From Psychrilyobacter piezotolerans (lineage in GTDB: Bacteria > Fusobacteriota > Fusobacteriia > Fusobacteriales > Fusobacteriaceae): a DNA stretch of 64,000 nucleotides. Both the position numbers and the translations under genes were made by a program. Positions 41,556 to 41,816 of this stretch are shown one piece after another. Within the stretch, counting starts at the first letter, position 1. The number at the start of each line of letters is the position of its first letter. The notes under the pieces were generated by a model. That model worked only from the letters and a program-made list of their open reading frames with translations, was not told where the DNA came from and did no database searches. Location: positions 1 to 64,000 of the forward strand of contig NZ_QUAJ01000013.1 in assembly GCF_003391055.1 (NCBI RefSeq), written 5' to 3'.

Positions 41556-41590
41556 TAAAAAACCATCAAAGCAAAATTGCCTTGATGGTT
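41556..41590 (-). terminator. attenuator terminator in the asnA leader
   Basis: On the minus strand AACCATCAAGGCA ... TGCTTTGATGGTT is followed by a run of T, then about 45 nt to the asnA Shine-Dalgarno. The loop side GGCAATTTTGC (41571-41581) can instead pair with GCAAATGCC at 41619-41627, giving an antiterminator. Confidence 0.85.
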
Positions 41591-41679
41591 TCCCTTATAG
41601 TTTCATTGAGGGGTTCTAGGCATTTGCATCTTGTTTTTATCACAAAATGGATCTGCCTAAAGATAACTAAATGTTATCT
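41591..41679 (-). promoter_or_regulatory. alternative-pairing region of the asnA attenuator
   Basis: On the minus strand, AGATAAC/GTTATCT (41661-41679) forms a hairpin at the leader stop codon. TAGGCA/TGCCTA (41617-41622 with 41654-41659) forms a second. TGAGGGG, coded by the leader codons right after the Asn run (41690-41696), pairs with CCCCTCA at 41607-41613 and encloses both. These would be affected by a ribosome stalled in the Asn codons. The exact switching path was not computed. Confidence 0.6.
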
Positions 41680-41757
41680 GTCTACAAATCCCCTCATATT
41701 ATTATTATTATTATTATTATTATTATTATTGTTAGAAATCATAATTAATTTAAACAT
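41674..41757 (-). CDS. asnA leader peptide with 12 consecutive Asn codons
   Basis: A 27-codon ORF, ATG at 41755-41757 and TAA at 41674-41676. It encodes MFKLIMIS, then one AAC and eleven AAT codons, then MRGFVDR. AAGGAG (41765-41770) lies 7 nt before the ATG, so it should be well translated. The codons read the amino acid that the downstream enzyme makes, as in the His, Trp and Thr leaders of other operons. The poly-AAT tract alone could be a microsatellite; the Shine-Dalgarno, promoter, following stem-loops and the asnA context argue for a real leader peptide. I know of no such leader described for asnA. Confidence 0.8.
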   Translation of the reverse strand: MFKLIMISNNNNNNNNNNNNMRGFVDR

Positions 41758-41787
41758 AGTCTTACTCCTTATAATCTATTTGTAACT

Positions 41788-41816
41788 AGTATAGAACATT
41801 TTTTTGATTATGTCAA
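41788..41816 (-). promoter_or_regulatory. promoter of the asnA leader
   Basis: On the minus strand TTGACA (41811-41816), exactly 17 nt, then TATACT (41788-41793). Near-perfect sigma-70 promoter about 20 nt before the leader Shine-Dalgarno. Confidence 0.85.

Follow-up and report, generated by a model that had tools for sequence, protein, structure and literature searches.

Attenuators of the E. coli trp, his, thr, leu, ilv and phe type have in common a leader ORF, clustered codons for the amino acid under regulation, hairpins that exclude one another and an intrinsic terminator ahead of the gene. Classical leader-peptide attenuators of this sort are usually seen as separate inventions, one per operon. 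The T-box (RF00230) is a single scaffold that is re-specified for each amino acid and that serves genes of synthesis, transport and tRNA ligation, asnA among them; here, uncharged tRNA is bound directly via a specifier codon, and translation is unnecessary. A 2008 survey listed no T-box in the two Fusobacteria/Thermotogae genomes that it covered (PMC2494555). In Rhodobacterales, the uORFC-8-2 motif upstream of cysS is a comparative-genomics candidate for a ribosome-mediated attenuator with tandem sensor codons; it differs from the fusobacterial family described below in that it concerns a single amino acid and a single gene in another phylum, with no exchange of sensor codons reported (PMC8632094).

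The window analysed here, the whole 64,000-nucleotide stretch of the Psychrilyobacter piezotolerans contig, carries on its minus strand upstream of asnA sequence elements characteristic of trp- and his-type systems: an ORF with ATG and Shine-Dalgarno sequence, codons matching the regulated gene, a terminator, and exclusive pairings between which a ribosome could select. From sequence comparisons covering anatomy, conservation, exclusive pairings, spacing and the match of codons to genes, we conclude that positions 41816-41557 very probably constitute a ribosome-mediated attenuator of asnA, which would sense charged tRNA-Asn via its Asn codons and belong to a homologous family of Fusobacteriota leaders varying in their codons.

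All features of the locus lie on the minus strand. The promoter (41788-41816), as read from the sequence, consists of TTGACA (41816-41811) and TATACT (41793-41788) separated by 17 nt, and in congeners a promoter is found at a similar position ahead of the leader ORF. A Shine-Dalgarno sequence, AAGGAG (41765-41770), is situated 7 nt 5' of the ATG of a 27-codon leader ORF (41757-41674) encoding MFKLIMISNNNNNNNNNNNNMRGFVDR, and Asn-run ORFs of this kind are kept before asnA in relatives. Its presumptive sensor is a row of 12 Asn codons, AAC followed by 11 AAT (41698-41733). The asnA gene itself (40500-41498) encodes aspartate--ammonia ligase, matching the NCBIfam equivalog TIGR00669 with 350.8 bits against a cut-off of 292.8. 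Tracts of five or more consecutive AAY triplets occur at only about 12 loci in the 3.36-Mb genome of the organism, and the run in the asnA leader is the longest of these. It is also the only one with a short Asn-run ORF accompanied by promoter, Shine-Dalgarno sequence and terminator; the other AAY tracts were rejected as further Asn-run leaders, being in other frames, within coding sequence or lacking a start codon.

Between the Asn run and asnA lie the segments that can pair in alternative ways. Strand 0, TGAGGGG (41690-41696), just past the Asn codons, is complementary to strand 3', CCCCTCA (41607-41613), in the terminated fold, and would lie beneath a ribosome positioned on the final Asn codons of the run. 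Strand 1, GGATTTGT (41684-41691), is the partner of strand 2, TTTAGGCAGATCC (41649-41661), in the readthrough fold; strand 2 can pair instead with strand 3, TGCCTAGA (41615-41622). Strand 3 is thus engaged with strand 2 for termination or, for readthrough, with its antiterminator partner strand 4, TCAAGGCA (41578-41585), within the 5' arm of the intrinsic terminator, a hairpin of -19.9 kcal/mol followed by a U-tract (41557-41592). The leader RNA folds with a z-score of -5.46, none of 200 shuffles being as good, and the pairing of strand 0 with strand 3' was equalled by 1 of 200 shuffles. No Rfam family matched the leader region, and a lax threshold added chance-level matches only. Elsewhere in the window, positions 11824-12177 on the plus strand hold a bacterial RNase P class A RNA (304.7 bits).

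The preliminary description of this locus had listed the promoter, Shine-Dalgarno sequence, 27-codon ORF, 12 Asn codons, alternative hairpins, terminator and asnA, and all are found on the minus strand where it placed them; the CCCCTCA partner that it assigned to the TGAGGGG arm likewise reappears in our folds. For the antiterminator, it proposed GCAAATGCC:GGCAATTTTGC. The two regions were chosen correctly, but the exact pair was not, and we have replaced it by UGCCUAGA:UCAAGGCA, which is the antiterminator in stalled-ribosome folds of the leader. Its reading of the locus as an attenuator is supported, although it missed both the strand 1:2 pairing (GGATTTGT:GCAGATCC) needed for readthrough and the membership of a family serving many amino acids.

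The comparison set comprised 98 Fusobacteriota genomes, of which 78 contain asnA (genus labels g1, g2 and so on are arbitrary). A short ORF with an Asn run lies upstream of the gene in about 31 genomes from seven genera: five of the organism's own genus, one of g14, seven of the seven g6 genomes, six of the twelve g5 genomes, ten of g3, one of g12 and one from a different family. The upstream regions were searched without finding such leaders in family f4 and in genera g2, g4 and g7. In a sixth congener, a MAG (L004/L031, G056:C38, NBMF01000022.1), a shortened Asn leader ORF occupies the interval from 78 to 33 nt upstream of asnA, too close to the gene for the hairpins to fit between them; either the attenuator was lost naturally or the assembly is at fault.

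The leader peptides of relatives, exemplified by MFKLIITSNNNNNNNNMRGFVYR, MKGHIIFLADLINNNNNNMLGFGLK and MKTLMFLINNNNNNNNNMRDLRH, hold the Asn run invariable while the residues ahead of it vary freely. The run spans from 4 to 12 or more codons in relatives and from 5 to 12 within the genus. Outside the genus, AAC and AAT are mixed, and reading frame, Shine-Dalgarno sequence and Asn identity are kept across genera. The retention of the run with synonymous codons mixed argues for selection on Asn codons, not on a DNA repeat, and the conservation that the preliminary description proposed to look for is therefore present. An intrinsic terminator was found in all 30 leaders compared.

Two arrangements connect the Asn codons to this terminator. 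Leaders of g1, g14, g6 and g5 have, after the run, a shared core comprising strands 1, 2 and 3, with the terminator next. In g3 (loci L024, L027, L029, L030, L111, L114-L116, L122 and L124), the tail of the leader ORF, AAGAAUUUAAAUUUAAU, is itself the antiterminator strand and pairs with a stretch entering the 5' arm of the terminator, AUUAAAUUAGAACUCUU. In this second arrangement, a ribosome waiting on the Asn codons would leave the antiterminator free, and a ribosome at the stop codon would cover it. The sequences thus point to at least two unrelated architectures among the asnA leaders, and the recurrence of the same codon before the same gene in both is a strong argument that Asn is what is sensed.

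To simulate the ribosome, about 30 nt were hidden and the transcript was folded up to the terminator loop. Most asnA leaders showed more antiterminator pairing with the ribosome placed on the Asn codons than with it close to the stop. In the window leader, about 7 nt are paired with Asn codons 10-11 in the A site compared with about 2 at the stop, and the predicted effect of stalling is confined to these codons, with none earlier in the run. The leader at L014 gives about 12 paired nt on an Asn stall and 1.7 at the stop, and a few g6 leaders are flat. Summed over 17 leaders, the difference amounts to 73.2, against 3.2 +- 8.3 when the intervening sequence is shuffled (maximum 15.6, n=40). Ribosome-masked folds therefore switch in the direction foreseen in the preliminary description.

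The pairings were also examined by exchanging strands between clades. Strand 3 binds its own strand 4 with -12.7 kcal/mol compared with -9.6 kcal/mol for clade-swapped partners, and strand 2 its own strand 3 with -14.0 compared with -10.0 kcal/mol, each at 2 of 720 clade permutations; control strand pairs gave no signal (539/720 and 691/720). Clade-specific pairing of strands 1 and 2 was rejected (395/720), the 1:2 helix being conserved and not divergent. The alternative pairings are thus maintained through compensating changes, as the preliminary description had anticipated.

A search of the organism's own genome for His runs yielded two His leaders with the same core motif as the asnA leader: MFNRSFSIFITVHHHHHR, upstream of an SBP_bac_3 ABC transporter, and MFNQMFAIRHHHHH, upstream of a hisZ-like gene. 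The strands of the core, GGATTTGT, ACAAATCC and GGATTTGTATC (consensus GGRTTTGT / ACARATCC / GGATTTGTATC), form exclusive 1:2 and 2:3 pairs. The core pattern has ten matches in the genome, three of them the Asn and His leaders, and the reversed pattern has none. A covariance model, R1, whose training set was limited to Asn leaders and the two His leaders, was run over the 98 Fusobacteriota genomes and returned leaders for other amino acids. These carry PIPPR and NPMVP before putP, MMMM before metN and metG, MMNMM before O-acetylhomoserine sulfhydrylase (metY), YYYYY before AGCS symporters, WYFYYYF before DAHP synthase and WW before trpS. Scanning with a second model, R2, produced more than 110 matches, spread over 51 genomes and 13 genera, and added WW and WWW before an NSS-type symporter, Met codons before homoserine dehydrogenase (hom) and many more His leaders.

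Family members were sorted into true and false by eye, the E-values of the covariance models being rough; seven matches (L271, L272, L281, L284, L286, L288 and L289) were discarded because they fall in coding sequence or have no leader. NCBIfam and Pfam served to check the gene identities of representatives. The match of codon to gene was taken as independent support for asnA, hisZ, putP, metN, metG, hom, the sulfhydrylase, trpS and DAHP synthase; for the SBP, AGCS and NSS transporters, the substrates are predicted from the leaders, and these cases were excluded from that support. The window element scores 62.8 bits with R1, of whose training set it is part, and E = 0.1 with R2, a weak match attributable to its divergent 2:3 helix. 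With R2, 20 genomes of Clostridia and Bacilli gave one marginal match (E = 0.037), and Rfam matched none of 20 family loci. The family models missed an Ile-rich leader ORF, MRSIINISIAIIIIIIITIINNISCDLYSTNSDNFF (G000:C6 near 86620, minus strand, L176), which has a Shine-Dalgarno sequence and a terminator-like hairpin downstream and precedes an ilvE-like aminotransferase and an ilvD-like gene. By its sequence, it is a candidate for a further leader-peptide attenuator.

Members of the family obey common rules. Across 36 members, 95% of cells are paired in helix 1:2 and 83% in helix 2:3, the same columns of strand 2 being used in both; sliding the partners by one column reduces 1:2 and 2:3 pairing to about half. 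Doubly changed cells number 10 for 1:2 and 52 for 2:3. A terminator is present in all 85 members analysed. In every member for which the ORF could be read, the distance from the end of the last sensor codon to strand 1 is 5-14 nt (median 7), whereas the stop codon ranges from 5 nt upstream to 20 nt downstream of that point. The 6 nt found in the window are within the range of the sensor. Since the spacing of the sensor is tight and that of the stop is loose, the geometry is tied to the sensor codons and not to the stop.

The remaining pairings are less uniform. Strand 3 is complementary to the 5' arm and loop of the terminator beyond shuffled expectation in 44 of 67 distinct members, and strand 0, formed by the sensor codons and a few further bases, pairs just 3' of strand 3 in 31 of 82 (<=10/200 shuffles in both cases). 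The latter pairing is striking in His leaders (CAUCAUAGAUA:UAUCUAUGAUG) and in the window (UGAGGGG:CCCCUCA), and strong in many His and several Asn and Pro leaders, but it is not general; both pairings are below significance in some members, notably several Tyr leaders.

The mechanism that we propose, in which transcription, stalling, polymerase-ribosome coupling and the response to Asn-tRNA are inferred, involves a terminated fold made of 0:3', 2:3 and 4:5 and a readthrough fold made of 1:2 and 3:4. With Asn-tRNA plentiful, the ribosome would traverse the leader ORF, allowing 0:3' and 2:3 to pair, so that strand 4 would remain available and the terminator could form; strand 1 would be covered by any ribosome close to the stop, which favours 2:3 as well. 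A ribosome stalled with a late sensor codon in the A site would reach approximately the border of strand 1. With Asn-tRNA scarce, the ribosome would wait on the last Asn codons with strand 0 covered and strand 1 free. Strands 1 and 2 would then pair, releasing strand 3 for strand 4, and polymerase would enter asnA. Other members would work alike, the scaffold being fitted, at a constant distance ahead of strand 1, with codons for Asn, His, Pro, Met, Tyr or Trp or with mixed aromatic codons. An asnS gene is present in the same genome as the asnA leader, so that free asparagine can directly feed the charging of tRNA-Asn. A simpler scheme, in which stalling merely frees strand 1, proved too narrow because antiterminator pairing is low in the naked RNA of His leaders, and the 0:3' pairing was added to it.

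In static folds, whose energies assume equilibrium and ignore the kinetics of transcription, stalling acts in the predicted direction in 50 of 85 members, in the opposite direction in 1 and without change in about 34; for some of the members lacking a static effect, the sequence in which the folds form must also play a part. That some members are left unexplained in this way lends some weight to an attenuator responding to a signal other than charged tRNA, such as nascent-peptide arrest or a general slowing on homopolymers, given that homopolymeric runs can slow ribosomes for other reasons. We consider this improbable: the residues ahead of the run are unconserved, unlike those of arrest peptides, the amino acid tracks the function of the controlled gene, and the Pro and Trp sensors of only two codons that occur in the family present no homopolymer tract. 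Still less probable is that the AAT codons form a neutral microsatellite, with the hairpins serving only as a constitutive terminator. Eleven of the 12 window codons are indeed AAT, and their number varies within the genus, but the synonymous mixing across genera with conservation of frame, Shine-Dalgarno sequence and Asn identity is contrary to this, as are the covarying pairings and the presence of His, Pro, Met, Tyr and Trp codons at the same place before matching genes. A motif just after strand 2, ATTTTGT (41648-41642 in the window), is nearly invariant and unpaired in the family alignment, neither 1:2 nor 2:3 needing it; we infer that it is possibly an RNA polymerase pause site. The same motif, as a conserved element that the pairings do not explain, could suggest a metabolite riboswitch or protein-binding leader with an incidental ORF, a very improbable reading given that seven specificities on one scaffold cannot share one ligand, that the codon run is the only part varying with specificity and that Rfam provides no match.

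In one genome (G059), the leaders of metN and metG share 85-97% identity over a stretch that begins about 80 nt 5' of the core and ends shortly beyond the terminator, compared with about 60% outside it; the two cassettes (G059:C2, metN at 206215, L267, and metG at 1505207, L280) are near-identical from promoter region to terminator. On this comparison, they are clearly a recent duplication of a regulatory cassette within the Met pathway. Leaders of different specificity share 62-72% identity, for the most part within the core, so that shared descent of these leaders is likely, convergence being the alternative. In another genome, a single contig (G035:C5) bears a pair of putP loci that look identical, each with the same Pro leader but oppositely oriented, at 30442 (plus strand, L275) and 174388 (minus strand, L276), which represent either a duplication or an assembly artefact.

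The fusobacterial leaders differ from E. coli-type attenuators in that one homologous scaffold is used for many amino acids, the sensor ends at a fixed 5-14 nt before strand 1, and readthrough requires both 1:2 and 3:4, the stalled ribosome covering an additional strand 0. Re-specification of one scaffold they share with the T-box. Control of asnA by a T-box in Firmicutes, stated in the preliminary description, applies to most loci, with a T-box before the gene in 14 of 19 Firmicutes (Clostridia) loci scanned; the RF00230 model matched neither the window nor any of 18 fusobacterial asnA loci. Overall, we hold with good confidence that Fusobacteriota possess homologous, modular ribosome-read attenuators in which one scaffold has been duplicated and re-specified by exchange of the codon run, giving at least seven specificities and a translation-based counterpart of the T-box. 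Judged by the genes that follow its members, the family appears to regulate synthesis, transport and tRNA charging in a phylum that seems to be without a T-box system, and this codon-exchangeable family seems to fill the T-box niche in Fusobacteria.

The family is apparently previously undescribed. We know of no described Asn leader peptide, and the open-access literature, with subscription journals mostly outside its coverage, contained neither such a peptide nor a multi-amino-acid fusobacterial attenuator family; our analysis thus adds an Asn leader peptide for which no published description was found. The leaders also predict what several poorly annotated transporters carry: His in the case of SBP_bac_3, Tyr for the AGCS symporter and Trp for the NSS symporter. 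With its fixed geometry, the family is a clean system for studying how a stalled ribosome's edge chooses between RNA folds, and direct predictions follow for exchanged sensors. If the reading is true, attenuators are able to propagate as modules and acquire new specificities, as T-boxes do, and the family would give a first overview of how amino-acid genes are regulated across Fusobacteria, some of which are medically important.
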